Assembly: GCA_945883495.1 (NCBI GenBank)
Contig: CAMCXS010000007.1
Coordinates: 1 to 64,000 of the forward strand
Origin: Akkermansia muciniphila
GTDB taxonomy: Bacteria; Verrucomicrobiota; Verrucomicrobiia; Verrucomicrobiales; DEV007
DNA length: 64,000 nucleotides
Direction: 5' to 3'
The position numbers and the translations under genes are program-made. Below, in pieces: positions 31,510-60,200 of this stretch. The notes under the pieces were generated by a model. That model searched no databases. It saw nothing but the letters and a program-made list of their open reading frames with translations, and was not told where the DNA came from. The number at the start of each line of letters is the position of its first letter. The first letter of the stretch is position 1.

Positions 31510-32499
31510 GTGAAGCTTTGGCTGGCCATCGTTGCGCTTTTGAGCTGGGCGGCCAATCCGGTGCTCGGAGAGGAGACGCTCTCTGATACTGGTGGGTCCC
31601 AAGCGGTGGCGGACACGGTTTTGCAGCGCGTTGCAGGCTCCGTTGCAAGAGCTTTCTGGGCCGGAGGTCCGGAGAGTGCTGATTTCACCCAGGCATTTTA
31701 CGTGGGCGAAGGGATCTTTCTTTCCGTGCGGCCGGGTGCCATGCTTTCCGAGGAAGTCCGCCTGCGGACCTCCCAGGGGGACCGCGAAGCGCGGGTGGTG
31801 TTGGTCGATCCGTCTTCAAACTTGGTCGTGCTGACCAGCGACTCTCGCCTAGATGAACCTTTGCAGCCGTTGGGCTTTGGTTCGAGCCGGGGTTTGTTTA
31901 TTGGGGATTCGATTTTTGCGCTGCGAGTCGTTCCTGTTTCTGGCGCGCCAGAGAGGACGGAAGTGGGAATTCTAATCGGTCGGGACCGCAAAGTGGAAGG
32001 CCGTATGCTGGAGGTGGCTTATCTGCGAGTCCGAGTCGAGGAGGGAGCTTCCGTCCAAGGGATGCCGATTTTCGACGATTCGGGCCGGGTGATTGGGCTC
32101 GATTTGGGGCGGGAGTTGGATCAGGGCGGCGCGGAGTTCCATGCGCTTCCGATCGAGGTGGCAGCCAAGCTCGTCTCTGATCTCAAAGTGTATGGGCGCC
32201 GCACGGACGCGTGGATCGGCTTGCGGTTCAATACCGGCACGACCACCGCGAAGGTCGTCGGGGTCCGGCCAGGTTCGCCAGGCGCCGCTTGTGGCGTTCA
32301 GCCCGGAGACGTGGTCATTCATTTGGCTGGTGCCCGGATCGACACCATCGAGGATCTCTCGGATAGCTGCTACACGCTGACACCGGGCCGGGCGGCGGAG
32401 ATTCATTTGCTCCGCGGCGTCGATCGGATTGAGTGCTCGTTGACGCCGCAAGTCATCTCGGCCAAGCCAGCCGATGTAGTGCCGGTGACCGCTCCCTGA
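31510..32499 (+). CDS. Secreted HtrA-like pseudoprotease with PDZ domain
   Basis: A 329-residue exported protein with a signal peptide (VKLWLAIVALLSWAANPVLG from a GTG start). Residues about 40-215 resemble a trypsin-like S1C fold, but the catalytic His region (normally TNAHVV) reads GEGIFLSVRPG, the Asp motif is VDPSSNLVVL with Asn in place of Asp, and the Ser motif GNSGGP is replaced by EEGASVQGMPIFDDSGRVIG. The triad is therefore incomplete. Residues about 225-315 are a PDZ domain (AKVVGVRPGSPGAACGVQPG). It lies 11 bases after the putative anti-sigma gene. A chaperone or sensor role replacing proteolysis is the likeliest reading. Confidence 0.75.
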   Translation: MKLWLAIVALLSWAANPVLGEETLSDTGGSQAVADTVLQRVAGSVARAFWAGGPESADFTQAFYVGEGIFLSVRPGAMLSEEVRLRTSQGDREARVVLVDPSSNLVVLTSDSRLDEPLQPLGFGSSRGLFIGDSIFALRVVPVSGAPERTEVGILIGRDRKVEGRMLEVAYLRVRVEEGASVQGMPIFDDSGRVIGLDLGRELDQGGAEFHALPIEVAAKLVSDLKVYGRRTDAWIGLRFNTGTTTAKVVGVRPGSPGAACGVQPGDVVIHLAGARIDTIEDLSDSCYTLTPGRAAEIHLLRGVDRIECSLTPQVISAKPADVVPVTAP

Positions 32500-32543
32500 A
32501 ACCGCCACTTGGCAAGTGGGGGAATCCTCCCTTAGCGTCCGGG

Positions 32544-33641
32544 ATGGGGAACCCCGAAATTCACTCGTCCAACTTGGAGGTGGTCGCCGCTTGGCGCGAT
32601 GAACTGGATCGCGTTGGCCGCAGGCTGGTCTTCACGAACGGCTGCTTCGATATCCTGCACGTCGGCCATGTCCGGTATTTGCGGGAAGCGCGTGCACTCG
32701 GGGACGCCTTGGTAGTGGGGTTGAATAGCGATGCCTCGGTGCGGGAGCTAAAGGGAAAGGGTCGGCCTATCAACAGCGAGGAAGACCGGGCCGAAGTTCT
32801 GGAAGCGTTGGAATGCGTCGATCGCGTTGTGATCTTCAACGAGCGTCGGGTCGATGGGTTGATCACGAAGATCCGTCCGCACCTGTACGCCAAAGGCGGC
32901 GATCACCGTCCCGATACCTTGCCGCCGGAAGAGCGCGAGGCGTTGCAGCGGGTTGGGGCGGAGGTGCGGATTCTCTCCTTGGTGCCGGGGAAGTCGACGA
33001 GTGCTACCTTGGTGAAGTTGAGTTCGGATGGCAACCCGGGGACTCGGCGTCCGCGCCTCGCGGTGTTGGGCTCTGGTAAAGGCTCAAACTTCCGGGCGAT
33101 GCTCAAGGCGATCCGGGAGGGGCGGCTCCACGCGGAGATCGCGGTGGTGATCAGCGACGTTCCTGGAGCGGGGATCCTCGATTTGGCCCGGGAAGCGGGA
33201 ATCCCGCATTTGGTGGTCGACTGCGGAAAGAGGCGGGCGTGGATCGACGCGGCAGGGTCAAAGGACTTGATCGACCGGATTCGGGCGTCTGGTGCTGACT
33301 TGGTGGTTTTGGCGGGTTTTATGAGGATTTTGGAGGAACCGGTCTTGGGCGCGTTTCCGGAACGGATTTTGAATCTGCATCCATCCCTGCTGCCGAAGTA
33401 TCCGGGCAAAGACGCGTGGATTCAGGCATTGGAGGCCGGGGAAAAAGAAGCGGGCTGCACGGTGCATTTGGTGACCGCCGAGGTGGATGCGGGGCCGATT
33501 CTCAAGCAGGCGCGCGTGGCGGTGGAGCCCGGAGACACGGCGGAAGCGCTGTATGCGCGCATCCAGGAGCAGGAGCACCGCTTGCTGCCCGAGGTCATCG
33601 AAGAATACAGCGCGAAGCTGCTCCAGGGCTTGCAACCCTGA
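32544..33641 (+). CDS. Fusion: heptose-1-phosphate adenylyltransferase (RfaE2) + PurN
   Basis: A 365-residue two-domain protein. Residues about 1-160 are RfaE2 (HldE C-terminal half): the nucleotidyltransferase motif FTNGCFDILHVGHVRYLREA, VVGLNSDASVRELKG, GRPINSEEDRAEVL and AKGGDH. It makes ADP-heptose for lipopolysaccharide. Residues about 170-365 are PurN: LGSGKGSNFRAML, LNLHPSLLPKYPG, HLVTAEVDAGPIL, the formyltransfer step of purine synthesis, with the catalytic Asn/His/Asp pattern in place. The linker (SSDGNPGTRRPR) is short and hydrophilic. ATG 32544 gives a full RfaE2 N terminus. I know RfaE2 and PurN only as separate proteins or other fusions, so this combination is unusual. Confidence 0.92.
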   Translation: MGNPEIHSSNLEVVAAWRDELDRVGRRLVFTNGCFDILHVGHVRYLREARALGDALVVGLNSDASVRELKGKGRPINSEEDRAEVLEALECVDRVVIFNERRVDGLITKIRPHLYAKGGDHRPDTLPPEEREALQRVGAEVRILSLVPGKSTSATLVKLSSDGNPGTRRPRLAVLGSGKGSNFRAMLKAIREGRLHAEIAVVISDVPGAGILDLAREAGIPHLVVDCGKRRAWIDAAGSKDLIDRIRASGADLVVLAGFMRILEEPVLGAFPERILNLHPSLLPKYPGKDAWIQALEAGEKEAGCTVHLVTAEVDAGPILKQARVAVEPGDTAEALYARIQEQEHRLLPEVIEEYSAKLLQGLQP

Positions 33642-36257: not shown

Positions 36258-36806
36258 TCAGGGCTTCGCTGGCGGGAAGAACTTCTTCCAATCGAGAGCG
36301 GGGATTCCATCGACGACTTCGACTTCTGGCACGGCGGGCGTTGGTAGCGCGGCGGGCTTGGGAGTTTCCGGTGCGGGTGACACTCGCGCGGCGAGAGACG
36401 GCGTCACGACGGCCTTGGTTGGAGGTGGCGCGTTATTCAAAATCTCAACCTGGTCGGGGGAAAGCAGTTTCATCTGGGGCGCTCCCCGGAACAGATCGAT
36501 TTTGCCGCGAACCCGCACGCGCTTGCCTTTGTAGGCTTCCGAGGGCGGAGTATCGCCGAAAGCCGCGACCTGCTGGGCGAAGGTCACGCAAATGAAATTC
36601 GTGTCCATGAACTCAAGAAAGTGGATGCCGCTGGCGTTGATCCTGGTGGAGTGGACGGTCCCTTCAACGAAGACCTCCTTGCCTTCGCTGGTCAAAAGTT
36701 GGTCTGTGGCGGTCACTGGAACCGGCGTTTCTGCCTGGGCGTGGCTGCCTGAGCCGATGATGAACGCAAAGAGCGCGAAAAAGAGTGGAGGGAGCCTGGT
36801 CTTCAT
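36258..36806 (-). CDS. Secreted OB-fold protein
   Basis: A 182-residue protein with a signal peptide (PPLFFALFAFIIGSGSHAQA). Residues about 35-110 have the strand pattern of an OB fold (GKEVFVEGTVHSTRINASGI, GKRVRVRGKIDLFRGAPQM, LLSPDQVEIL), followed by a Pro/Ala-rich linker and a conserved-looking tail (IPALDWKKFFPPAKP). OB folds bind nucleic acids, oligosaccharides or proteins; here the periplasmic location makes the last two likelier. Last gene of the ExbB/ExbD operon; its ATG overlaps the vWA gene stop by four bases, which fixed the start choice. Confidence 0.78.
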   Translation of the reverse strand: MKTRLPPLFFALFAFIIGSGSHAQAETPVPVTATDQLLTSEGKEVFVEGTVHSTRINASGIHFLEFMDTNFICVTFAQQVAAFGDTPPSEAYKGKRVRVRGKIDLFRGAPQMKLLSPDQVEILNNAPPPTKAVVTPSLAARVSPAPETPKPAALPTPAVPEVEVVDGIPALDWKKFFPPAKP

Positions 36807-37867
36807 CGCTTGATTGACTTGAATTCGCCACGGAAGCGGTTGGCGATGCGTTTCCATTCACCCTCGTCCTCCGGCTTGCTCTCAAAGGCGATGAAGTGGA
36901 GCACGGCCGGGCGGGGCAAGGTCGATTGCATCTGATCGATTGATCTGCGGATTTCGTCGTAAGGGATGTTGGAGATCGTGCCACCGGGCGACCACTGGAA
37001 GCTGCCGTCGGAGATGATCCAAATGACATCTGGCGCCATCTTGAACCCGGCTTCGAGCACTCCGACTAAGCCACGCTCGTTGCGCACTACCCCGCGGGAG
37101 GCGGAAGACATGGAGCCGCTGGTGACCCACTCGGTTTGGACCCAGGACTCGGCTGTTTCCTTGTTCTTGGTGGTGGCGACGGTGAGATCCGCGGACAGTG
37201 ATTTGTAGTTCTGAGTGAATTGGATGATGGAAAAGCGGGTATCGACCGGCAGTCCTTTGATCAGTTTGATGGTTTCTTGCTGAATCGTTTCGAGTGGGAC
37301 GCCTGCGCTGGAAGCCTTGTTGACCACGGAACTGGATACGTCGAAGAGCAGGAGGATGCGGCTGCCTTCGGAGCGAATTCCCATAAAGTTCATTCCGTTG
37401 CCGCTCCCGCCGCCGCCGAGGAGGCCGTTGCCCAGGCCGCGGCCGATCCCGGCTGAGCCGACCAAGCTGGAGATCTGATCGCTGACGAGGGCGCTGGGGT
37501 CCAGAGGTAGCATCTGATCGAGATTCACCTGAGGCAGATCCGGCAACGCGAACTCGGTGGGGATGGTGCTGACGAGCTTCTGCGTGAAGGTGGGCTTGGG
37601 CCGGCTGGCTTCATGCTTGGCCACGTTCATCTGATGCTGCGGAGTTTTCGGCGGGATGCGGATCTCCTTGGGCGGCACTTCAAAGACCGCCTCGGGCACC
37701 CGATAGTATTTGACCAGCGCGATGGTGCCTAGCACTACGCCCGAGCAGGCAACGACGATGACTGCTCCCACCAGAGTAGAGGCGAGCAATCCGAGGGCTT
37801 GACGCCGCTCCTTCGCCTCAACGGCGCGGCGACTGCGGTGATCTGCGGCTTGAATGCGGAGGGACAT
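36803..37867 (-). CDS. Membrane-anchored von Willebrand A protein in TonB position
   Basis: A 354-residue protein. A short charged cytoplasmic N terminus is followed by one transmembrane helix (about 25-52). Residues about 60-110 are a Pro/Lys-rich stretch like the periplasmic spacer of TonB (VPPKEIRIPPKTPQ), then a Gly-rich hinge (RGLGNGLLGGGGSGNG). Residues about 168-354 form a von Willebrand A domain: MIDAS start DVSSS at 176-180 (Asp-x-Ser-x-Ser) and WIISDGS downstream. This is a TonB-like build with a vWA domain in place of the TonB C-terminal domain. It follows two exbD genes (5-base gap to the nearer) and its stop overlaps the OB-fold gene's ATG. It should bind a ligand through metal. 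Confidence 0.85.
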   Translation of the reverse strand: MSLRIQAADHRSRRAVEAKERRQALGLLASTLVGAVIVVACSGVVLGTIALVKYYRVPEAVFEVPPKEIRIPPKTPQHQMNVAKHEASRPKPTFTQKLVSTIPTEFALPDLPQVNLDQMLPLDPSALVSDQISSLVGSAGIGRGLGNGLLGGGGSGNGMNFMGIRSEGSRILLLFDVSSSVVNKASSAGVPLETIQQETIKLIKGLPVDTRFSIIQFTQNYKSLSADLTVATTKNKETAESWVQTEWVTSGSMSSASRGVVRNERGLVGVLEAGFKMAPDVIWIISDGSFQWSPGGTISNIPYDEIRRSIDQMQSTLPRPAVLHFIAFESKPEDEGEWKRIANRFRGEFKSIKR

Positions 37868-37872
37868 CGGAT

Positions 37873-38334
37873 TCAGAAATCGTCGGATGAGCCAGTCGCG
37901 GCGGCGGTATCAAATGTGACGCCCCGGATTTTGGCCACGGCACAGGTGTTGAGGACGTCTACGACTCGTTGGTGTCCGACCGCTGCGTCGGGCACCAGAG
38001 TGACCAACGCCTTGGTCCGGTTTGCCTCTGAGGATTCGCGGAATCGGGTTAAGGTTTTCTCCAATTCGCGCAGTTTACGGTCTCCCGGTGCGCCGAGCGG
38101 AAGTTCGTTCAGGATGACCGATCCGTCGGCGGCAATGATGATGCGCTGCTCGTCCGGCATTTCAATCGTTTCGCTCTGTTCAACTTTACCCGGTAATCCA
38201 ATCTGAATATCGCTCTCCTCCTTCACTGGTTTCGCGGAGACCATGAAGAACACGAGCAGGAGGAACACCATGTCGATCATGGGGCCCATCTGCATTTCGA
38301 CTTCCTCGTGTTCTCGCTTGCGGCGGCGGGGCAT
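37873..38334 (-). CDS. exbD: ExbD/TolR-family protein, second copy
   Basis: A 153-residue biopolymer transport protein. The basic N terminus (MPRRRKREHEEVEM) precedes one membrane helix (PMIDMVFLLLVFFMVSA) with Asp21, the residue thought to carry protons in ExbD and TolR. The periplasmic part has the usual strands (IIIAADGSVILNELPLG, ALVTLVPDAAVGHQRVVDVL, GVTFDTAAATGSS). It lies between the first exbD copy and the vWA gene, with small gaps of 17 and 5 bases. Two unequal ExbD copies suggest hetero-oligomer pairing with one ExbB. Confidence 0.92.
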   Translation of the reverse strand: MPRRRKREHEEVEMQMGPMIDMVFLLLVFFMVSAKPVKEESDIQIGLPGKVEQSETIEMPDEQRIIIAADGSVILNELPLGAPGDRKLRELEKTLTRFRESSEANRTKALVTLVPDAAVGHQRVVDVLNTCAVAKIRGVTFDTAAATGSSDDF

Positions 38335-38351
38335 GGATGAAGTGGATTGAA

Positions 38352-38759
38352 TTAATCGTTAAGGACACCAAAGACGACGCGATCGACGCCTGCATCGGTG
38401 GCCATCTGCATGAACTCGCTGGTTTGCTTAGCTGGTGTATACTTGTCGGCGCGGAGGTAAATCATATAGGGAGTGTTCTTTCCGTAGCGCTTCTTCAAAT
38501 AGGCCATCACGTCCTCTTTGTCCGCTCTGCTCTCGCCGATGTAGTATTCACCCTTGGCATCGATGTTGATCACGTCGCGTTTGGAGTCGTCCTCGGGCAG
38601 CACGGCCGCGGACGCTTCTGGAAGGTCGATGTCTCGCTTCACCTTTTGCTCGGTGAGCGTCGAGGTGATCATGAAGAAGACGAGCAACAAAAAGGTCATG
38701 TCGATCATCGGAGTGATCTGAAAGCTGACCGGCGTGCCGTGGCTTCTCTTGCGGGACAT
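38352..38759 (-). CDS. exbD: ExbD/TolR-family protein, first copy
   Basis: A 135-residue ExbD/TolR-type protein. Its membrane helix (PMIDMTFLLLVFFMITST) carries Asp20. The periplasmic part includes VINIDAKGEYYIGESRADK, AYLKKRYGKNTPYMIYLRAD and VDRVVFGVLND. It differs from the neighbouring copy in the periplasmic part more than in the helix. It follows exbB with a 23-base gap and is a likely partner of the proton channel. Confidence 0.93.
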   Translation of the reverse strand: MSRKRSHGTPVSFQITPMIDMTFLLLVFFMITSTLTEQKVKRDIDLPEASAAVLPEDDSKRDVINIDAKGEYYIGESRADKEDVMAYLKKRYGKNTPYMIYLRADKYTPAKQTSEFMQMATDAGVDRVVFGVLND

Positions 38760-38782
38760 GGGGATGAAGCGAAGGAATGGAA

Positions 38783-39544
38783 TTACTCGCCGGAGGACAG
38801 TTGGATCTCGCCGGAAAGGACGTCGATCGCATAGCTGAATTGCTTTTGGATCTCCGTGGTGATCGAAGTGAGCTGGTTACGGAAGAAAAAATAGAAAAAC
38901 ATCGCGGGAATGCCAACGATGAGTCCGCCGGCCGTGGTAATCATGGCGGTGCCGATGCCTGCGGCGAGATCCGATGGCTCCGCTTTCCCGGCGGCCAGGG
39001 CATCGAAGGCGACGATCATTCCTTGCACGGTGCCGAACAGACCGATCATCGGGGCCAGCGTGGAGACGGTGTTGAGATAATTAACCCAGCCCATCACCTT
39101 GGTCTCCTCCTGATCCAAGGTGTCCTCGGCGCCGACCACCATCGAAGCTTTGTTGGCGAGATCGCGCTCGAAGTTCACCTTGAGGAGAGCTTGCGCGATA
39201 CACTTGGAATACGCACAAGGGTTCTCCTTCACTAGGGCATAGGCTCCCTGAACATCGCGGGATGCCATGGTGCGATTCACTCCGTCCACAAGCCGCTTGG
39301 GCACCATGCGAGCTGGATTTATGACGATGAAAAGATAGATGGTTAAGGCGATGAACGCGATCAGCGCGAGGAGCAATGGATGCATCATCACGCCACCTGC
39401 ATTGTAGTAGTCGATCAGGTTTTTGGTGGCCACGAGGTCGGCTGCCGCTGGCGCAGGAGGCTTCTCCTCTGCGTAGAGCAGTGGCGCAAATGTGGTCAAC
39501 GAGATTGCGGTGGCTAGGTGGACGAGCTTGGCGGCCTGGTTCAT
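38783..39544 (-). CDS. exbB: ExbB/TolQ/MotA-family proton channel protein
   Basis: A 253-residue polytopic protein. An extra N-terminal hydrophobic stretch resembling a signal peptide (KLVHLATAISLTTFAPLLYA) precedes the usual three helices (LLLALIAFIALTIYLFIVIN, STLAPMIGLFGTVQGMIVAF, GTAMITTAGGLIVGIPAMFFYFFF). The conserved GLFGTVQGMI motif and the cytoplasmic loop are intact. With the two ExbDs it forms the proton-driven stator. Its ATG overlaps the stop of the preceding TPR-like gene by four bases. Confidence 0.93.
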   Translation of the reverse strand: MNQAAKLVHLATAISLTTFAPLLYAEEKPPAPAAADLVATKNLIDYYNAGGVMMHPLLLALIAFIALTIYLFIVINPARMVPKRLVDGVNRTMASRDVQGAYALVKENPCAYSKCIAQALLKVNFERDLANKASMVVGAEDTLDQEETKVMGWVNYLNTVSTLAPMIGLFGTVQGMIVAFDALAAGKAEPSDLAAGIGTAMITTAGGLIVGIPAMFFYFFFRNQLTSITTEIQKQFSYAIDVLSGEIQLSSGE

Positions 39545-40479
39545 CGTGGCGCGTTGGTCTGATTCGTGGATACGGATTCGGTGCTGGAAAGACTGTTCAG
39601 GAGGCGTTCCGCTTCTGGCCGTGCGGCGGTTTGTGGATAGAGCCGGAGAATGTCTTGAGCACAGGCGCGGGCGTTGCTGACATCTCCGGCGAACTGATGA
39701 ACCTGGGCGGCCCCGAGAAGTCCTTGCGCTGATGCGTTTTCCTCGGAACCAAAGAAGAGATAAGCATGTAGAAAAAGATCCAGCGCATCATGGAGTAGCG
39801 CCGCGCGCTTGGGCAGCACGTCATCGTCTTCCATCCAACGCGGATGCTCTTTCTGCAGGTCCCGAAGGCGGGTGAAAGCAGCCGTGGCTAGGACGTATTT
39901 GGCCTCAAGGAGAATTTCGGGCTCTTCGGATTGCGAGGCCATCACCTGCGCTTCGCGAGTCGCCTCCTCCACTTGCCCCGACGCGATCAGGGCACGGAGA
40001 CGGCCTCGTTTGGCGCGGGGCAGATGCGCTTTGTTCCAGTCTGACCTTTCAACGGTGAGAAAGACATCCATGGCTCTCCGCAGAGCGACTTCGGAGGGCT
40101 CCGCGAGCAGGCGCTCGGCGTAGAGAAGCCCAATCTCTCCGGCGTTTGATTTTGACCGGGACAAGTGAGGGAGCTTCTCCATCCAGAGTTCCCGCAAAGT
40201 CTCCAGAGACACTTTGCCCGGATCTGCGAGGGCCTCTGGTTCTTGATCAAGAATTGGAAAGTCGATGTGGGCGATGGCGGACCACGAAATGGTTTCAGTG
40301 GAAGCCCCTTGAAGGCTTTCGCTGAGTGTGATGGCCACGCGAAGGGTGATTCCGCTGTCTCCAAATGACGTGACCTCGCCCTGCAGCGGAGGACGGGCTG
40401 AATCTAGGAAATATACCGTTTCTCCGCGGAGCCAGCCGGGGAGTCCGCAAAGGAACAGGAGCGCGGTCAACTTGGTCAT
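39541..40479 (-). CDS. Secreted TPR-like protein
   Basis: A 312-residue protein with a signal peptide (LTALLFLCGLPGWLRGE). The N-terminal part (residues 20-75, TVYFLDSARPPLQGEVTSFG) is beta-rich. The rest is alpha-helical with alternating short and long helices typical of tetratricopeptide repeats (EEATREAQVMASQSEEPEILLEAKY..., VSNARACAQDILRLYPQTA). The partner of such repeats is unknown. ATG 40479 overlaps the upstream stop by four bases and its own stop overlaps exbB, supporting coordinated synthesis. Confidence 0.8.
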   Translation of the reverse strand: MTKLTALLFLCGLPGWLRGETVYFLDSARPPLQGEVTSFGDSGITLRVAITLSESLQGASTETISWSAIAHIDFPILDQEPEALADPGKVSLETLRELWMEKLPHLSRSKSNAGEIGLLYAERLLAEPSEVALRRAMDVFLTVERSDWNKAHLPRAKRGRLRALIASGQVEEATREAQVMASQSEEPEILLEAKYVLATAAFTRLRDLQKEHPRWMEDDDVLPKRAALLHDALDLFLHAYLFFGSEENASAQGLLGAAQVHQFAGDVSNARACAQDILRLYPQTAARPEAERLLNSLSSTESVSTNQTNAPR

Positions 40480-43409
40480 GGCGCAACGGGCGTGGCCGCC
40501 TGCGGTGGATGGGCGAATTCTGACAATGCCTCGGCACGATGGCGGGCCTGATTCGCTTCGGCGAATTCGGAGAGATCTGGACGGGTGGCGAGTTCTTGGT
40601 AAACCTGCCAAGCGGCCGGCTTGCGGTCCAAGGATTCGAGCGTTTGCGCGCGGCGCAGGTAGGCTGGCGCGACGAGATCCAGAAAGCGGCCGTAAGCGAC
40701 GTAGACGCGCTCGTAGTAGGCGGCTGCCTTCTCGCCTTCTTGGTTACGGGCAAAGTGATCGCCGAGGCCGAGAAGCGCTCGGGCTTTCTGATGGCCGGAG
40801 GCGTTCGGGAGCGAGAGGACTTGCTCATAGGTGGCTTCCGCCAAGCGCGCTTGCTTCTCCCGTTCTTGCAAATCCGCTTTCACCAGAAGAATCTCCGGTA
40901 AATCGAGTGAGGTGGCGGCTTTGCGCTCGTATTCGGTAAAGTAGCGGATCGCCTCGGAATGCTTGCCTGCCGCGGCCGCGAGATAGCCAAGACCGGCATC
41001 GGCTCTCGATCCTTCAAGAGAGCGTGGGTTCCATCTCTTGAGTTCTTTATAGAGCTTCTCCGCGATCACCGGATGTCCCTTGCGACGGGCGGCGTCGGCT
41101 GCATCCGCGAGGAGGAGCGGATTGTGGACTTCTGGGTTAAGCTGAGAGGCCATGCTGGCCAAGAGACCGTCGGACAACGTGGCGTTTTCGCTACGGAGTT
41201 GAATGGCTTCAAGCCAAAGCAGGCGCACCTGGAGAGTGTTCTTTTTAGCGGCTTTGGCCTCGCCTTGCCGTCGCTGGAGGTCCTGGCGGAGCCGCTGGGA
41301 ACCGTCGCTTCCCTCCTTCCGATAAACCTTGGGCACTCCGGTGAGCAGATCTTCCACGGAAAAGAGCGCGGGGTTATCGCCATGGGTATCCAGGGTATCC
41401 CAGTAGACTCTCTTCGCGTCCTCAAGGCGCCCTTCTTTCGCTAAGGTGTAGCCGATCCAGTAAACAGCTTCCGGCATCCGCTGACTGGAGGGATATTTCT
41501 GAAGAAATTCTTCAAAGTGAGCCCGCATCGCCGGGATGTCCTCCAGGAGCTTGAGGGCATTTCCTGTTTTGAACCACCCATCCTCGAAGAACCGGGTTGA
41601 GGCCGGATGGATGGATCGATAAGCCGCCAATCCTTTCTCAGCTTGGCCGAGCGCCAAATAGGCATCCCCGAGCAAGAGGCGCGCTTCATCGGCATCGGGA
41701 GCGTGATCTCCATATTCTTTCAGAAATTGGCTGAACTCGCGGATCGCTGTTTCATAATCAGCGGAGCAGAAGGTACAGTAAGCCATCCGGAAGTGCGCCT
41801 CGGATTCGTAGCGGATGCCGGTCTTGGCGTATGCCTTTAGATAGGACTCCATCAACTGGCGGCAGGCTGGATAATCCTGTTTGAACGAAAGCGCCATGGC
41901 CTTCCAATACGAGGCATCCTGGGCCACTGCGTCTTCCGGATACTCACGCACCAGTTGCTCAAAGTTGGTTGCGGCCGAGTCGTTAGTTTCGAGCAGGAGA
42001 TTCGTGAAGCCCTGCATAAAGATTGCTTTTGGGCGCAGTGGATGTTTCGGGAACAGGCTCGCGATATTGGCGAAGACGCTGTTGGATTCCGCGGTGCGCT
42101 CCAGCTTCTGCAAGGCATCAGCCTGGAGGAACATGGCTTGCGCCAGGTCGGGAGAGGATTTCTGATCCCCGAAGGCGACCAGGTAGTTTTCCGCCGCTTC
42201 CAGTGCTTTGGGCCAGCGTTCGAGTTGCATCCAACTCTGGATCACGGCGAGAGACGCCGATTGCACGACGGGGGAAGGCTCCAGGTGCCGGAGCATATCT
42301 TCCATAATGAGGGCGGCTTCCCGGTAGCGGGCCAAGCCTTGGAACGACAGGGCGAGCCGGAAGCGGAGGGCGGCATCGAACTCCTCGATTTGGCGGAAGT
42401 TCTCCACTTCCCGCTCCACGCGCTGGATCATGCCGTTGAGCTGAAACAGGGCGCTGGCCCGGAGCGGATCTTGAGCCAAGTTTGCCTGGCGTTTCTTCAA
42501 GGCGACGAGCCGTTCTTCCTGGTGTTTCAACAATCGACTCTGGGTCCAGATCCGTTGCAGGCAGGCGATGGCGTCGTGATAGCGTTTCTCCTCAAGAAAC
42601 TTGGAGCCGAGTTGCAGGGCGAGTGTCTGGAAAGCGATCACCTGAGAGATCTCGGCCATTCGCGGATACTCTTCGCGAAGAAGAATGAGGGCGGCGTCGT
42701 GCTGGCCAGAATTGAGCAGAGCCATCAAGCGCAGGACCACAGCCCGACCTGCATATTCTTGACCACCGGGGATGCGCCGAAGGTTTGGGATCTGGTGAAA
42801 GAAGAACTCCGCCGCCGTGCGGTGGTAGCCGAGAGTGACATAACAAGTGCCAAACAAAACCAAAGCCTCCATGCGCTTGGCAGGCTGGAATTCGGGGACG
42901 GCGAAGAATTTTCCGAAGGCCTCTTGGGCCGCGCGGTAGTCACCCTCCTGCATGCGCACGATGGCGAGCCAGAATGAGAGCTCCTGCCGGACATCGACTC
43001 CTACGATTCCCGGCGGCAGGAGAAGAGCCGCCTCCGCATACGGCTTGGCTTGGGCGGCCCGGCCATTGCCAATCATGCAGAGAGCGATGAGAGCCTTCTG
43101 GCGATCTACGGCATCCTTGACCTGAGGTTCGGCACCGAAATCACGTTCAAAAGCGAGAAAAAAGGCTTCGGCCTGCTCCAATTGATTGGCTCGGAACGCG
43201 GTGGTGGCGAGCGTCTGAAGTTCGGACACGGTGTGAGCTCCCGGCTCTGGAAGTGGAACTTCCGCGGAGGCGGTAAGGCAGGTGAGGAGCGCGTGCGTCA
43301 GATGGACGGCTACTTTGTTGGTGATGAGGCGGGACAAGGCGGCCGAAACCTCTGCTGATGATTGGTGAGAAGTAAACGATTTTCTCGCAAAGTGACGAAA
43401 TCGTCGCAC
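40476..43409 (-). CDS. Large tetratricopeptide-repeat protein
   Basis: A 977-residue protein of mostly TPR-type helical pairs. Repeated signatures include AFRANQLEQAEAFFLAFERD, EAALLLPPG, YPEDAVAQDASYWKAMAL, YGDHAPDADEARLLLGDAYL, GQAEKGLAAYRSIHP, EEFLQKYPSSQRMPEAVYWI and YERVYVAYGRFLD. An N-terminal hydrophobic stretch (about 30-48, VAVHLTHALLTCLTASA) looks like an inefficient signal peptide, giving a periplasmic protein. I see no catalytic domain. It begins the seven-gene operon and probably scaffolds the ExbB/ExbD complex or its envelope partner. The N-terminal start is uncertain: an internal GTG would shorten it by about 32 residues. Confidence 0.85.
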   Translation of the reverse strand: MRRFRHFARKSFTSHQSSAEVSAALSRLITNKVAVHLTHALLTCLTASAEVPLPEPGAHTVSELQTLATTAFRANQLEQAEAFFLAFERDFGAEPQVKDAVDRQKALIALCMIGNGRAAQAKPYAEAALLLPPGIVGVDVRQELSFWLAIVRMQEGDYRAAQEAFGKFFAVPEFQPAKRMEALVLFGTCYVTLGYHRTAAEFFFHQIPNLRRIPGGQEYAGRAVVLRLMALLNSGQHDAALILLREEYPRMAEISQVIAFQTLALQLGSKFLEEKRYHDAIACLQRIWTQSRLLKHQEERLVALKKRQANLAQDPLRASALFQLNGMIQRVEREVENFRQIEEFDAALRFRLALSFQGLARYREAALIMEDMLRHLEPSPVVQSASLAVIQSWMQLERWPKALEAAENYLVAFGDQKSSPDLAQAMFLQADALQKLERTAESNSVFANIASLFPKHPLRPKAIFMQGFTNLLLETNDSAATNFEQLVREYPEDAVAQDASYWKAMALSFKQDYPACRQLMESYLKAYAKTGIRYESEAHFRMAYCTFCSADYETAIREFSQFLKEYGDHAPDADEARLLLGDAYLALGQAEKGLAAYRSIHPASTRFFEDGWFKTGNALKLLEDIPAMRAHFEEFLQKYPSSQRMPEAVYWIGYTLAKEGRLEDAKRVYWDTLDTHGDNPALFSVEDLLTGVPKVYRKEGSDGSQRLRQDLQRRQGEAKAAKKNTLQVRLLWLEAIQLRSENATLSDGLLASMASQLNPEVHNPLLLADAADAARRKGHPVIAEKLYKELKRWNPRSLEGSRADAGLGYLAAAAGKHSEAIRYFTEYERKAATSLDLPEILLVKADLQEREKQARLAEATYEQVLSLPNASGHQKARALLGLGDHFARNQEGEKAAAYYERVYVAYGRFLDLVAPAYLRRAQTLESLDRKPAAWQVYQELATRPDLSEFAEANQARHRAEALSEFAHPPQAATPVAP

Positions 43410-45119: not shown

Positions 45120-45182
45120 CATGCGACAAAGAGAGGCGAAGCATCTGCCACTGGTCAAAAAAAGACAGCTTCAGTCTAAGGT

Positions 45183-45582
45183 CCAGAACGCTCAGAGGAG
45201 CGTTCGCAACGCTCAGAGGAGGGTTCGGAACGCTTAGGCGAGAGTTCGGAACGCTTAGGCGAGAGTTCGGAAGGCTCAAGCGGGAGTTCGGAAGGCTCGG
45301 GACGAAGGTTCAGGAGGCTCAAGCGAGCCTTCGGAAGGCTCAAGCGAGAGTTCGGAAGGCTCGGGACGAAGGTTCAGAAGGCTCAAGCGAGCCTTCGGAA
45401 GGCTCAAGCGAGAGTTCGGAACGCTCAGGGCGAAGGTTCCGAAGGCTCAAGCGAGCCTTCGGAACGCTCAAGCGAGAGTTCGGAAGGCTCAGGGCGAAGG
45501 TTCAGAAGGCTCAGGGCGAAGGTTCAGAAGGCTCAAGCGAGCCTTCGGAAGGCTCAAGCGAACCTTCAGAAGGCTCAAGCGG
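45183..45582. repeat. 21/22-bp tandem repeat array (about 19 units)
   Basis: A tandem array with unit near CGGAAGGCTCAAGCGAGAGTT, without spacers. Some units have one extra base (GGCGAAGGTT forms) and two sub-types alternate. It ends two bases before the stop codon of the TolC-type gene on the minus strand and starts about 60 bases after the amt terminator. It resembles the array at 250-605 in period and position (downstream of a minus-strand gene), but not in sequence. It is non-coding in my view. Confidence 0.88.
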
Positions 45583-51258: not shown

Positions 51259-54200
51259 TCAAGCTTCAGATGTCGCAACGCGCAGGCGGCGGCGTCCGAA
51301 CCAGAGGCCGAGCGCCAGGAGAAGGACGATGGCGATCACCTGAGATGGCTCGGGCACGGCGGTAATCGTGGCTGCGCCACCAGCGTAGTCGATTTGGTAT
51401 TCGCCGAGAGTGGTGGAGAAGGTGGCGCCATTGCCCAGGGCCCCACCGTTCCAGAAGAACAGTCCATTCAGACTGCCGTAAGAGGCGATGGTGAATTGGT
51501 TCCCGTAGGTCCAGTTCGAATCGTTGATGCTCAGGAGGGCATTGTCGAGAGTGAGGACCCCGGAGACGTTGATGCGGTCGCTGCTTGGGGAAGCGCCTCC
51601 GGCCAGATCGACAAGCCAAGTGCTGCCTTCCGACGCGAACAAGTCACCGCCGAACGAAAGGGTTCCCCGGGTGCCGGCGGTGGCGCCGGTGAGGGTGGCG
51701 CCAGCCGCGATGGTGGCGGTGCCGCCCGCCGAGGTGAGGGAGCCGGTGCCGCCGAGGGTGCCGGCATTGACGTTGACGTTTCCGGTGCCGGTGCTGGTGC
51801 TGTTCACCAAGAGGGTGCCGGCTCCTTCTTTGTTCAGAGTCGCATCGAGCTTGATGACGTTGGTGCTCGCGACCGTGAGGGTGGTGCCCGCGTCCGTGTT
51901 CAATGAGCCGCCGGAGCCAGCCACGTTGATTCCGCGGTTGGTATGATCCAACGTAACATTCGCCGTGGTCCTCAGGGTGCCTCCACTGAGGGTGAGCTGG
52001 CCAGCGTTGAAGGCGCCTGGGTTGTTGCCGAGGTTGTTCTGGGCGGAGATGGCGAGCGTGCCGCCGGAGACGGTGGTGGTGCCGGTGTAGGTGTTGGTTC
52101 CGGTCAAGGTGGCGGTGCCGGTGCCAGTCTTGGTGAGGTTACCCGTGCCGCCGACCGCGCCGCTCAGGATGAGGTAATCGGTCGCGGTGCCGGTGGCGAT
52201 GGTGTTGTTCGTGGCTGCGTTCAGCGTCACGGCGCCGGAGGCGGTCGAGGTGCCGGTGCTGGTGACTGAACCTCCGTTGAGCGTGAGGGGTTCGGCCGTG
52301 GTGACGCCGTCGAGGTTCAGGTTGCCGCCGGAGTTGACCGTCGTGCCCTGGCCGGTAGAGCTGCCGCCGAGACCGCTGTTGTGGGAGACTCGCAGCGTGC
52401 CGCCGCTGACGGTGGTGACGCCGGTGTAGGTGTTCGCTCCCGCCAGGGTGAAGGTTCCGCTGTCGTTCTTGGTCACCGTGCCGGTGCTGGTGGCGACGAC
52501 TCCGTTGAAGTTGGTGTTGCCTGCACCTTCCACGGTGAGGTTGAAGGCCCCGGAGATGCCGCCATTCACGTTGAGCGTGCCCGCATCCGATTGGATCGTC
52601 GATGCGGAGCCAAGGATGACCGGACCGGCGAAGGTGTTGGTGCCGCTGAGGTTGCGCAGGGCGCCGCCGCTGGTGTCGCTACCGACCGTGGCGCCATCGC
52701 CGTTGAGGGTAAGGGTTTCACCAGCGATGTTCACGTTGCCTTGCAGCTCCAGGGAGCCGTCCGCCGTTACGGAGGTGGCACCGGCGGTGCTGCCGAGGGC
52801 GTTGTTGCTGGCAGCGCTGACAATGCCTGCGCTGATGGTGGTCAGGCCGGTGTAGGTGTTGTTTCCACCCAGGACAAGCTTGCCGTTGCCGGTCTTGGTG
52901 AGGGCTGAACCGCTGGTGTCGCCATTGATCGTGAGATCGTTCGTGGAGTTGACCGCGATGGTGGCGGTGGTGGCTCCGAGGGCGACCTTGCTGCTGATCG
53001 TGGTGGCGCTGGAGCCGGAGTTGGTGGTGATGGCGGAAGCACCGCCGATGGAGAGGATGTAGCCGCCGTCCGCCTGGACATTCACGGGGGTGGTGGTGTC
53101 CGAGTTGTTCACGGTCAACGAGTTGATGCTCATGTTGGAGCCCAGGACCATGCTGTTCTGGTTCGCTTGGCCGGAGGCGGAGACGAAGACGTTGGTTCCG
53201 GAGCTGGGGACTTGACCGGTGTTCGTGGTTCCGGCCAGATCGGTGGTCCAGTTGCTCAGCGTCGAGCCGTTGGAGACGGACCACACGTTGTTCAGCCCGG
53301 AGTAGGCGCCTTTCCAGTAGGCGCTGGTGAGCGCACTGGCCGGGGCGACATCGAACTGGACCAATGTGTCCGTCGAGGTGATGCCGTTGACGGTAAAGTT
53401 GGTGACGTTGTAGAGGTTGCCGACGGAGTAGGTGCCGGAGCTGCCGTTGGTGCTCACCAAACCGCCGCCTTGAGCGACGAGAATGTCCGACTTGCCGCCG
53501 TGGGTGCTGATGCCGGGCAGGAAGTAGGCATCCACCGCCACATTGCCGGTGACAAGGGCCTTGGCGCCGGGTTGGAGGCGGATGCTGCTGCCGGTGTTTT
53601 GACCAGAGTTGCTGCCCACGTTGGTGCCGGTGTTCGGGCCCACTTCCACGCCGAGGCGGCTGCCGTCCGCGAGTTCGAGCGCGGTGCCATCGGTGCGGGA
53701 GAGGGTCAGCGTGCCTCCGATTGAGCCGGTAAGGAGGTTGAAGGTGGAGCCGTTGGCGACGGTGAGTTTGGAGGTGCCGGAGAGACCGCTCATGACGCCG
53801 CTGCCGACGGTGCCGGTGACGTGGGTGACTTCAAGGATCCCCGCGTTGACCGTGGTTTCCCCGTTGAAGGTGTTGGCGTTGCTGAGGACCTGACGTCCTG
53901 AGCCATTCTTGATCAGGTTGATGTTATTCTGAATCACGCCGCCGTAGGTGAATGATTCACCCGCCGTGGTTCCGGTGCCGATGGTGAGGTTCGACATGGT
54001 GGTGGCGGAGTTCGTGATGAAGCCGGAGCTGCTGGCGAAGACGCTGGTGCTCGGCAGGGCGGCCAACGGGGTGGCGGCGCTGATTTGGCGGAAGTTTGCG
54101 TTGTAGCTGGCCAGATCGAGCACGCCGCGGCCGGAGGTGGAGAGGTTGGAGCCGCTCGGCAGGGCATTGGCGGAAGCGAGGCGCAGGGTGCCATTGGCGA

Positions 54201-57200
54201 TGTTGGTGCCGCCGGAGTGAGTATTGGTTCCGGAGAGGATGACCGTGTCCGCGCTCTGCTTGGTGAGGCTGCCCGGGCCGCTGATGTTGCCTTTGATCTC
54301 CAAAATGACGCCGCGGGCGGTGTCCGTCAGGGAGCTGTTGTTGTTGTTGTCGGGCTGACCGGAGCCGGGGTTATTGTCCTGCGGACGGCCGTTGTCGATG
54401 CCGTTAGCGCCATCGGTGAGCGCGTTCTGGCCGACGAAGGAGTTGCCTGCGAGCACGAAGCTGACGTTGCTGCCCAGGGTGCGGAAGACGGTGCCGTTGT
54501 TGACGCTGGCGGTGTCGTCGGTGCGGAGGAAGCCCTCAATGCCTCCGCCGTTGAGGGTGACGGTGGCGTTGGTGTTGAACTGATCCGCGTTGATCTGCAG
54601 GGTGCCGGAACCGAGGTTCAGGGCCCCGCTGCGAGCGCCATCGATGCTCCAACGCTCGGCGGAACCGGCGGCGTAGGTGGCGGTCTTGTTGAATCCAGCC
54701 ACCTGGATGTCGAGCACGCCGTAGCGGTTCACCGAGATGGTGCCGTTGCCGAGGGCGTTGTTGTGGAGCACGGAGATGGGCCCTTGGTCGATGATGGTGT
54801 TTCCGGTGAAGGAAGCGCTGTTGTCCCCCCGGACGTAGAGGGCGGCGTTGCCCCACTTGATGAGGTTGTTGCTGCCGTTGATCCCGGCGACGGTGACACC
54901 GGTGGAATTGCCCGAGGTGATCTGGCCGTTCGATGCATTCACCAGAGCAAGATCCAGGATCGAGTTGCCGGTGCCGGTCAGGTGGAGCGTGCCCGCGTTG
55001 AGCATGGTGCGGTCGCGACCCACGTTGATGCGGAGGCGTGCCGGGGACAGGCCGGTCGTGTCCGTGGAGAAGATTTCCAGGTCGCTGATGCCGATAGTGC
55101 GGTCGCTGGTCTGGGTATCCATGTTGATGATGGCGTTATCGACCGCGATGATGCGGCCCATGGTGTATTGAGCCAGGAGTGGGGTGCCGGGGTTGATATT
55201 GAGGGTCAGCGAGGAACCGGCGTTCGTGGCGGTGCTGCTGCTGTTCAGGGTGATGGTGCCGCCGTTGCCCGCGCCGCCGAGGGTGTTGAACTGCAAGGTG
55301 CCGCCATTGACGACCCAGTTGCCGCTAAAGCCATTGCCCGGGCCGCGCGCGGCGTCGGTTTGATCCTTGCCGATGGTGAGGTTCCCCGCGCCGAACTTGG
55401 TGATGGAACCGGCAGTGAGATCGCCGTTCATCGTCATGGTGACGGAGTTGTAAATCACCCCTTCGTTGGTGCCGGAGGCGCCGAACTTCAGGTTGGCGTT
55501 GACGGCCAAGTTGTTTCCTTGGGCGATGAGACCGCCGATGTTCGCGCCGGAGCCGCCGATGGTGATGGTGTTGTATTGGCCGGTGGCGCTGTTGAGGTCC
55601 CGGTTGATGCGGAGGGCGTAGACGGCCGGATCATCTTGCAAGGTGACGGCGGCGCTGGCGTTCACATCGACCACTGCGGTGCCACCGGTGAGACCGGCGG
55701 TGAACGGCGTGGCGGAGATGATGTTGCTGTACGCGACCTGGTTCGTAGCCGGGGTGGCGGTGCTTTGCAGGGACTGGAAGCCGGTCGTGGTGTTGTAGCT
55801 CAGGAAGGTGTGGTTCGACACATCCACGAAGTGACCGGGGAGGATTCCGTTGGGGGCGAAGCCGGGAGTCGCGTTGCGGTTCACTGAACCGGCCAGCGTG
55901 GGCGGGGTGGAGTTCCAAGCGGTGACGAGGATCCGTTCGACTTCGTCGTTGCCCGTGTTGACGCCGAGGAAGTTCGCGTTGGGCTGGATGCCAAGGGTGG
56001 TGCCGACTCCGGCGCGGGTCAGATCGGCGACGGTGAGTTGGGCAGCGCCGTTGGTGATGCGGCGATCGATCCGGATGGAGGAACCGCGGCTGTAGGAGAT
56101 GGCGCCCATCGTCTCCGTGCTGGTGACGGCGGCGTCGTTGCGGGCGCGGAAGAAGAGCTGACCGCCGTTGAGGGCGAGGCCGGTGGCGTCATCCCAACGG
56201 TTGGTGACGTTGATGGCGTCGTTGTCGAGCCAGAGGACGGATCCGGGATGGAGGTTGGCGGTGTAGGCATTGGCCGTGCCCGCCGCATTGCGGAAGGTGG
56301 CATTGTCATACACTTGCAGGGTGCCAAAGATATTCACCGCTCCGCCGATGCCGAGAGGTCCGGCCGTGGCGGTGGAGTTCTGACGGATGATCATGGAGCT
56401 GCTGCGGCTGATGACCGTTCCGCCGGTATAGGTGAAGATGTCCTGGCTATCCACGGCTCCCGTGTTCCCGTTCGCGGCTTGGTTTCCGATCAAGACGCGG
56501 GTACCCGGGGTGGAGCCTTCCACGAGGGCGCCTAGGGTGCCAGCCGCCGAGGAGTTCAGGGTCAAGTTGGTCCCGCCGCCACCGAGGCGGTAGATGTTCC
56601 CGGCGCCGATGCCGAGGGATTCGTGGGTGTAGGTCGTGTTCGTGGCGGCCCCAAGGAAGGAGTTGCCGTTGCCGATCGTGCCGAGATTGAGCGGGCTGGC
56701 TGGGGCTTGGTCGAGGGCGATCACGCCGTTCGAGTTCGACGAGATCCAGGTCTGCAAGTTGGCCTGGGTAAGGGCGGTGCTGCGGACGCGGAACATGGAC
56801 ATGGAGGAGCCGGAACTGAGGAGTTCGACTTGACCGGTGCCGAAGCTGAGGTTGCTGCTGCCGGCGAGGATCTGCGCGCCCGGATTGACCCGGATGGTGC
56901 TGCCTCCGAGCATCGTGTCGAGGTTGAAGGTCGTGGCGAGGTTCTGGTCATTGGTGTTGATATCGCCGAAGCGAAGCAGACCGCCGTTGACGACGATGCC
57001 GAGACCTGGGCTGGTGGAGGAGCGGTAGAGACCGCCGAAGCGGCTGGAGTTGGAGTTAATCCAGAGGTCGCTGCCTCCATTTTTGATGATGGCTTGACCG
57101 GCACCGCCGTCGGTAATCGCTCCGTTGAGGAAGAGCGGGGCGCTGCTGACGTTGAAGACTGGAGTGCCGACTAGGGTCGTTCCGCCATTGATCTCCAGGA

Positions 57201-60200
57201 CGTAGCCGTTGCCTCCAGTTACATTTAGGGCGGTGGAGCCGATGGTCAGATCCCTGAACGCCAAGTGCTTGTTGGAGTAGGCACCAGTGTTGCGGTTAAG
57301 GTCCAGGGTCGAGGCGCCGTTGACGATGAGGCTGTTGCCCGTGGTGGAGTTGCCGAGCCAGAAGCGCTGGCGGGTTCCGTCGTTGGTGCCGACATCGTAG
57401 CGAAGGTTGGTGGTGCCGCCGTAGAGCGTGAGGGCGCCGGTGCCGATACCGCCGTTGGACATGCCCGAGGCGTTCGCCAAGTTATTGGGCGTGCCGCTGC
57501 CAAAACTATTGACGGGGGCGCCAGTGCTGGTGGCCCGGACGTTCAAGGTTCCTTGCTGGACTTGGACTCCACCGGAATTGGTGTTCAGCAGGCCGGTGTT
57601 GACATTGTTCAGGTCCAAGACCTGCAAACCGGTCTTCACGAGGGTGGCTCCTCCGGTGACTTGGCCGTCGATGCGGAGGGTGGCTCCGATGTTGTTAGCT
57701 CCCACGTTGACGAATGCGTAAGCGGGGCTGCCTTCGATCGTCCCGGGGCCGAGATCCAATCCGCCGCGAGCGAAGATGTTGAAGGTCGTGGAACCCGTCG
57801 GGTTGTTCATGTAGAGCGTCTGGCCTTGCTCACCCGGCGATCCTCCGAAGCGGATGCCACCGTTCATGACGAGGTTTCCTGAAGTGAGGCTATTCACCAC
57901 GTTGATCCGGTTCGCGGTGAGGATGCCATAGGGATTGCCATCGCCGAGGGCTAGGCCGACGTTGAACGCCGTGGTGCCAACGACGGCGGAGAACTGGAGA
58001 CCGGTCCCAACGACGGTGGTGGGCGCCGCACTGAGGGTGAAGGTGGTGGGACTGGTGATCTGAGCGACGGTCAGGCCGTTGACGCCGGGGCCGTAAAGTG
58101 CCATCCCTGGCACGAGTCCGGCGGTGCTGGGCACGGTGACCGTGGTGCTGCCCGCCGTGGTCGTTGCGCCGGTCAGTGAGACGGTGCCGCCCACGTTGGC
58201 TACGAAGTTATTGTTCGCCGCGGTTCCCTGAGTCGCGGTGGCGTTGACGGCAGAACCGTTGACATCGACCAAGCCGACCGTGGTGCCTGAGATGGAGCCG
58301 ATGCGGGCTCCGGCCGGGATGCCATTGCCGCTGATCGGCTGACCGAGGACTAGTCCGGTGGCGCTGGTGACGGTGATGTTCGAGTTGCCCGACGTGCTGG
58401 TGAAAGTGTTGGCGACGAGGGCTCCCACGTCCGAAGCCAGGTTCAACGAACCACCGAAGTTATTGATCACGACCAAGCCGTTGGTGCCGGCGTTCATTTG
58501 CGCCAGGGACGCGGTCCCGCCGAGGTTGGCGGCCGGCACGGTGGCGGAGGAGCTGGCTGGGTTACGGAGAGTCAGGGCACCTTGGTTGATGATGTAGTTT
58601 CCGTTAAACGCTGGCTGCCCGGCATCGATGAAGAGGGTGCCGCCGCCTTGTTTGACGATGTGCGTGGCGTTGGTGATCCGGCCAGTGGTGGGGACAGTCC
58701 CGACGACACCGAGGGAGCCGATCACCAAGCTGCTGGCGTTGAAGATGTTGGCTTCTTGGGGCGATACGCCGAAGGAGATACCCGGGTTCACGGTGCGGGT
58801 CGACGCGTGAGAAATCAGGCCGCCGCTGCGGATTTGGATCCGGTCGGTAGCGGCTGCGGTGCCTGAGGCAAAGTTGATGTCGTTATCGAGACGCAGGGCG
58901 TAGGTGTCGAGTGCGAGACCGCCACCTCCAACCATGGTGGCGGCGGCACCAGTGATGAGGGTGCGCTCAGTGGGAACTGATGTATTGCCCAGAGCGCCGT
59001 TGCGGCTGCCATCGAAGCCAGCGTTTACGAAGCCGTTGTCCGCCGTGTAGGTGAGGAACTGAATGTTGTTCGCATCGCTCGTGGCGGAGTTGATCATCCA
59101 GGGGGCCACCATGCCGTTGGTGATCCCACCGGGGACCGAGGCCGCGCCGCCCGCGAGCTTGATGCGCTCATCGCTGCCGAGCTGGCCGATGGCGATGGCG
59201 TTGAATTGCAGGGAGGCGTTGTTGCCGGCGATGGCCAAGCCGTTCACGGTTTGGTTGGTGCTCCGGACCAAGTCGGCGCCTGCGCCGCCGCCGATGATCA
59301 ACGTAGCCGTGCGGTTGGCAAGGTCGCGCTGGACGGCGAATTGACCGAGCTTGTTGACGGTGACATCGCCAATGGTTTCGGTGATTTCGATGCTGCGGTT
59401 GCCGAGCAAGCGGACGCTGGAGTTGTCCAGAGTGATGGCGGTGTCATCATCCCAACGGCCCTGACCGCCGTAGCCTTCGAGGCGGTTGGTGGCCAGGAGG
59501 CCGGTGGCGTAGTCGAAGCGGATCTCCGAGGTGTTGCGCAGGGTCACGGGAGCGAGGTTGGCGGTGCCATCTGCATTCAGGAAGGTGCCGCCGAGTCCGC
59601 CCGCAGTGAGGGTGCCCCAGGTCTCGAAGGAGCTGGTGGTCAGGCTGCCGCGGAACTCGAGCGTGCTGCCGCGGTTGACCAAGGTGGCGCCGGTGTAGTT
59701 GTTCGCGGTCATGAGGACCACGGTGCCGCGGCCATTGCCTCCGGTGATGCTATCCGTGTTGAGTCCACTGAAGGGCAGACCCACGGTCATGGCCGTGCCG
59801 GAACCGGTGAGGACATTGCTGTTCGCCAAGTCACTGCTGACATAGAGCGTGCTGCCGCCGGCGCCGAGCCGGTAGGTGTTGCCTGCGCCCACGCCGAGGG
59901 TGGCGGCGTTGTAGCTGCCGTTGAGGCCAACCCCGTTGGTCGTGGAACCGAGGAAGGCGGTGCCGTCGCCGATTCGAGCGAGGTTCAACGCCTGAGTGTA
60001 AACGGTGTTGAGGGCGACGATGCCGGCACCGCCGGTTTTTCCGTTGCCGTTGAGGCCATTGCCACCGGCAAAGCCGAACCAAGAGGTGTCTTGGGGCCCG
60101 CCGAGGTTCCCGAAGAGGACATTGAACGCGGAAAGCGGTTCATTGGTGGCCATGCGGAGTATGCCGTAGTTCGCCAGGGTGTTGCTCCGGATGTCCGTGG

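Follow-up and report, generated by a model that had tools for sequence, protein, structure and literature searches.

The window, by which we mean the whole 64,000-nucleotide stretch of DNA analysed, carries a seven-gene operon in which a candidate von Willebrand factor A (vWA) force transducer and its ExbB-type motor subunit have jointly lost the His/Ser pair responsible for coupling TonB and TolA to their motors. This joint loss of the docking His and its ExbB Ser partner, found in a subclade of three operons, is what is new here, and from the aligned sequences the docking contact of that subclade is either rebuilt or lost. The vWA transducer family itself has been described before: in the PVC group, Williams-Jones et al. 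(2025) predicted vWA force transducers, of unknown function, encoded downstream of one TPR, one tolQ, and two tolR genes, and modelled them independently as motor-docked transducers (PMC12204202). Thus, the main idea of the original prediction, an ExbB/ExbD operon with a vWA protein in the place of TonB, is sound, but it had already appeared in print as a prediction. No phenotype is reported there for such operons (PMC12204202), and our literature search found no experimental study of them beyond that prediction.

The operon (Table 1) runs in the order TPR, TPR-like, ExbB, ExbD, ExbD, membrane-anchored vWA, and OB-fold, with all seven ORFs present on the minus strand. Both this order and the four-base overlaps between genes had been predicted, and both hold, the latter as ATGA at three of the six junctions (TPR1/TPR2, TPR2/ExbB, and vWA/OB); only a few bases separate the second ExbD gene from the vWA gene. 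A scan for promoters and terminators performed no better than chance. In the AlphaFold2 model of TPR2 (pLDDT 91), TPR-like helices follow a small beta domain; a fold search with this model gave no match at E <= 0.001. Elsewhere in the window, a single plus-strand ORF (32433–33641) fuses a cytidylyltransferase-like domain to a PurN-like formyltransferase domain, an unusual fusion; a minus-strand ORF of 4165 aa (51259–63756) with passenger-associated-transport repeats (PATR) encodes a giant autotransporter-like protein; and tandem arrays of 21-base units lie at 45178–45581 and 250–602, the first also readable as a 64-base period.

Table 1. Genes and key residues of the window operon
Feature	Coordinates	Strand	Description
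TPR1	40476..43409	-	977 aa; large protein with TPR matches in Pfam and a ybgF-like TPR match in NCBIfam; probable signal peptide; gene 1 of conserved order
TPR2	39541..40479	-	312 aa; small beta domain then TPR-like helices, probable signal peptide; conserved position
ExbB/TolQ-type motor subunit	38783..39544	-	253 aa; Pfam MotA_ExbB 2.7e-25
ExbD/TolR type 1	38352..38759	-	135 aa; Pfam ExbD 9e-22; proton-carrier Asp20
ExbD/TolR type 2	37873..38334	-	153 aa; Pfam ExbD 4.1e-20; proton-carrier Asp21
Membrane-anchored vWA protein, candidate force transducer	36803..37867	-	354 aa; AlphaFold2 model and fold search; conserved with ExbBD
OB-fold-like secreted protein	36258..36806	-	182 aa; ATG at 36806; in-operon position limited to the window's subclade
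ExbB codon 61 (Leu; aligned with E. coli ExbB Ser34)	39362..39364	-	Ser in 46/46 relatives
vWA helix residues 35-47	37727..37765	-	Ala35 and Val39 in place of Ser/His; Gly43-x3-Gly47
vWA DxSxS of MIDAS (Asp176, Ser178, Ser180)	37328..37342	-	Second Asp is Asp287 (37007-37009); no Thr

Across Verrucomicrobiales, genes one to six are conserved as a module. Of 58 loci from named genomes, all bearing Verrucomicrobiota names, 49 have ExbB-ExbD-ExbD-vWA in this order; a contig end truncates seven of the remaining nine, leaving as exceptions without that explanation L116 (a weak ExbD1 and no detected ExbB) and L129 (ExbD2 and vWA only, despite 9 kb of upstream sequence). Loci with wide coverage show TPR1-TPR2-ExbB-ExbD-ExbD-vWA, and since this six-gene order recurs across the family, it lies far beyond chance. 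A vWA relative was found at E <= 0.001 in 70 of the 75 genomes of the window's family, with 53 strong matches (E < 1e-20, counted from the results table). The operon is also present in other families and in distant groups of the same phylum, where the readable sequences have the docking His and the ExbB Ser. The vWA gene is therefore conserved with exbBD, as the original prediction had anticipated, the four genes staying together in relatives. The proton carriers Asp20 and Asp21 of the two ExbD proteins are invariant, as are ExbB Thr172, Thr204, and Pro213 (E. coli Thr148, Thr181, and Pro190); with these residues intact, the motor looks functional. The window vWA protein stands nearer to members from other genera (up to 60%) than to its two relatives in its own genus (44–45%), a pattern that points to horizontal transfer or an old paralogy.

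By sequence, the vWA protein gives only a weak match (VWA_3, 0.012). Its AlphaFold2 model (mean pLDDT 83; about 92–98 over residues 161–354) consists of one long N-terminal helix (residues 2–55), a spacer of low confidence that contains short helices, and a confidently predicted vWA domain, the closest folds to which are the vWA domains of inter-alpha-inhibitor heavy chains (Z 17.8, 156 residues, 2.1 A). The model and fold search thus provide the helix, disordered Pro-rich spacer, and C-terminal vWA domain of the vWA transducer family. Asp176, Ser178, and Ser180 are present as predicted, and with Asp287 they supply much of the predicted MIDAS; 55 of 58 aligned vWA sequences retain DxSxS, and all 58 retain Asp287. 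The canonical Thr of a metal-binding MIDAS (DxSxS, Thr, Asp), seen as GGT in another vWA subgroup, has no counterpart by alignment in the window protein or most relatives, and because of this incomplete ligand set metal-dependent adhesion is an open guess.

Turning to the docking site, Ser16 and His20 of E. coli TonB contact Ser34 and Trp38 of ExbB (PMC12215075). The docking His column of the vWA helix holds His in all 55 other relatives that have the segment and Val in the window, L104, and L111; similarly, the ExbB column aligned with Ser34 holds Ser in 46 of 46 other relatives and Leu in the window, L104, and G020. The G020 ExbB lies on a different contig from the vWA gene of that genome (L111), and we infer a shared operon for them. 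ExbB TM1 positions 60 and 71, close to Leu61, are also changed in the subclade, and vWA position 43 is Gly in all three members, placing a G43-x3-G47 motif on the docking face. The three operons form one clade in the tree (support 1.0), so the docking change is a single evolutionary event. Among near-invariant positions, 3 of 40 are changed in vWA and 7 of 63 in ExbB; if such changes are treated as random, the chance that both contact residues were struck is about 1%. Many vWA transducers carry an SHLS motif with the docking His, which is a hallmark rather than strictly defining (PMC12204202). The window protein has Ala35 and Val39 instead, and thus lacks the His that gives the other members their resemblance to TonB; we file its operon as a divergent homologous subclade of vWA force transducers. 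The "TonB plan" ascribed to this protein thus survives as an architecture of helix, spacer, and domain, but the TonB Ser-x3-His docking motif is absent from its membrane helix. The two residues are paired a second time within the same genome, where the TolQRA-like system on contig 20 has both the docking His and Ser. A further system on contig 12 (L069 8762–11984) comprises double ExbB, ExbD, and TonB, with a TonB helix lacking the docking His and Ala at the Ser34 position of the ExbBs. Other Verrucomicrobiota (L157–L167, L170, L171, and L180) encode vWA relatives that have Gln for the docking His in nearly all cases showing the helix, with ExbB/ExbD undetected nearby.

The OB gene lies inside the operon in three loci only, those of the window's subclade. 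The original prediction is thus right about its presence in the window, but the general module lacks this gene, and we rejected the OB protein as a general component of the machine; co-occurrence of OB and operon across genomes looks largely lineage-driven. The protein has a weak tRNA_anti_2 match (5.8e-05, below the cut-off). Other family members encode an OB homolog elsewhere in the genome, and at four inspected non-operon loci it adjoins a gene that by sequence reading resembles tryptophanyl-tRNA synthetase, and has a different C-terminus. As each of the three subclade genomes has a single OB match, in the operon, the simplest reading is that the gene moved there from elsewhere.

Two TonB_C proteins are encoded in this genome, on contigs 12 and 20 only, each at a locus with its own ExbB/ExbD; no TonB match was found in the vWA protein by Pfam search, so we discarded a TonB hidden in the operon. 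These separate loci also speak against a normal TonB using the same channel, which the original prediction had named as a refuting condition. A TolQRAB-Pal-like locus, with TolB_N and Pal-type matches, also lies on contig 20; the window operon encodes no TolA, TolB, or Pal with its motor and, given the separate locus, is unlikely to be a Tol-Pal substitute. The existence of these separate TonB and Tol-Pal-like loci makes the window operon an additional machine. Zorya anti-phage defence, for which ZorA/ZorB with ZorC/ZorD or ZorE was sought, was also dismissed, the only Zorya match in the seven proteins being a weak one of ExbB to ZorA (5.7e-05). A further ExbB-ExbD-ExbD trio is encoded at the edge of contig 16 (L065 1–4755), followed by an ORF resembling a TolB-type beta-propeller.

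We propose, as the probable reading, that the operon encodes a proton-driven force machine with rewired motor–transducer docking. Such a PMF-driven envelope machine of the ExbBD/TolQR type would have ExbB and two different ExbD proteins as its ion-driven motor and the vWA protein as its putative transducer, with the single membrane helix docking on the motor and the spacer crossing the periplasm. The vWA domain may pull on or remodel a partner, which the secreted TPR proteins would hold or which would be located at the outer membrane. Within the subclade, the dock would have been rebuilt, with the His/Ser pair lost on both proteins and probably replaced by a hydrophobic G-x3-G/Leu contact, and the OB-fold protein would have joined the operon. 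The evidence is of a sequence-based kind: gene order, conservation, intact proton-path residues, the predicted vWA fold, and the joint loss of docking residues. A motor with vWA in the position of TonB, as originally predicted, fits both the linkage of the four genes in relatives and the separate loci of TonB_C. More tentatively, and with the balance slightly against it, a Ton/Tol-type motor may here run without the His-Ser docking pair, transducer and motor having been rewired together to the G-x3-G/Leu helix contact. If so, a supposedly essential transmembrane His would not be a universal part of force coupling. Cryo-EM work places the Ser-His/Ser-Trp-Pro network at the centre of the question of how the TonB/TolA helix signals to the motor (PMC12215075, PMC12905483), and a natural lineage that lacks both contact sides while keeping motor and operon is a ready-made test of the need for this network in coupling. 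As the two proteins changed together, the case for vWA transducers as real motor partners is also sharpened.

Loss of both the docking His and the ExbB Ser could alternatively mean that the subclade vWA is undocked, the motor serving another transducer or only conducting ions while the vWA, TPR, and OB proteins form a static envelope scaffold. The same genome has a TPR1'-TPR2'-vWA' cluster without adjacent ExbB/ExbD on contig 4 (L064 5399–10301), showing that the scaffold components can occur on their own; this motorless vWA, however, keeps Ser-x3-His (SLLVH). The window operon, moreover, retains all six genes together with intact motor residues, and the paired changes in vWA and ExbB suggest continued contact; we consider an undocked vWA unlikely. 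Motorless TPR-TPR-vWA clusters also occur in two relatives of the same genus (L072 and L075). Less probable again is a vWA that acts as a regulator or sensor, gating the ExbB/ExbD channel on envelope ligands: vWA domains are commonly binding modules, and the TonB–ExbB contact has itself been proposed to signal channel opening (PMC12215075), but the length of the spacer and the TonB-like topology fit a reach across the periplasm.

Like the published vWA family (PMC12204202), a rewired force machine of this kind combines a TPR gene, one tolQ-like gene, and a pair of distinct tolR-like genes with a vWA protein built of a membrane helix, a disordered spacer, and a vWA domain. The window's subclade differs in lacking the docking His, in having Leu in place of the Ser at the ExbB contact, and in carrying an OB gene; to the description of the family we add TPR2, a second conserved TPR-like gene. 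Gliding has been speculated for this family (PMC12204202), and the Agl-Glt machine is the remaining comparison, set out below. Motor subunits and transducer topology are those of TonB-ExbB-ExbD, with a vWA domain for TonB_C, two ExbD types, and no Ser-x3-His. Tol-Pal (TolQRA-TolB-Pal) has a homologous motor and a TPR partner, and the window operon differs from it in having no TolB, Pal, or TolA domain. The Myxococcus Agl-Glt system combines one ExbB-like and two ExbD-like proteins (AglR/AglQ/AglS) with TPR proteins and a vWA protein, the same make-up as in the window. A gliding-type machine is nevertheless the least probable of these readings, as none of the seven genes was recognised as a gliding gene by the models applied, a set that had no Glt models, and as CglB, the vWA adhesin of Myxococcus, is located in the outer membrane, whereas the window vWA is predicted to carry a membrane helix at its N-terminus.
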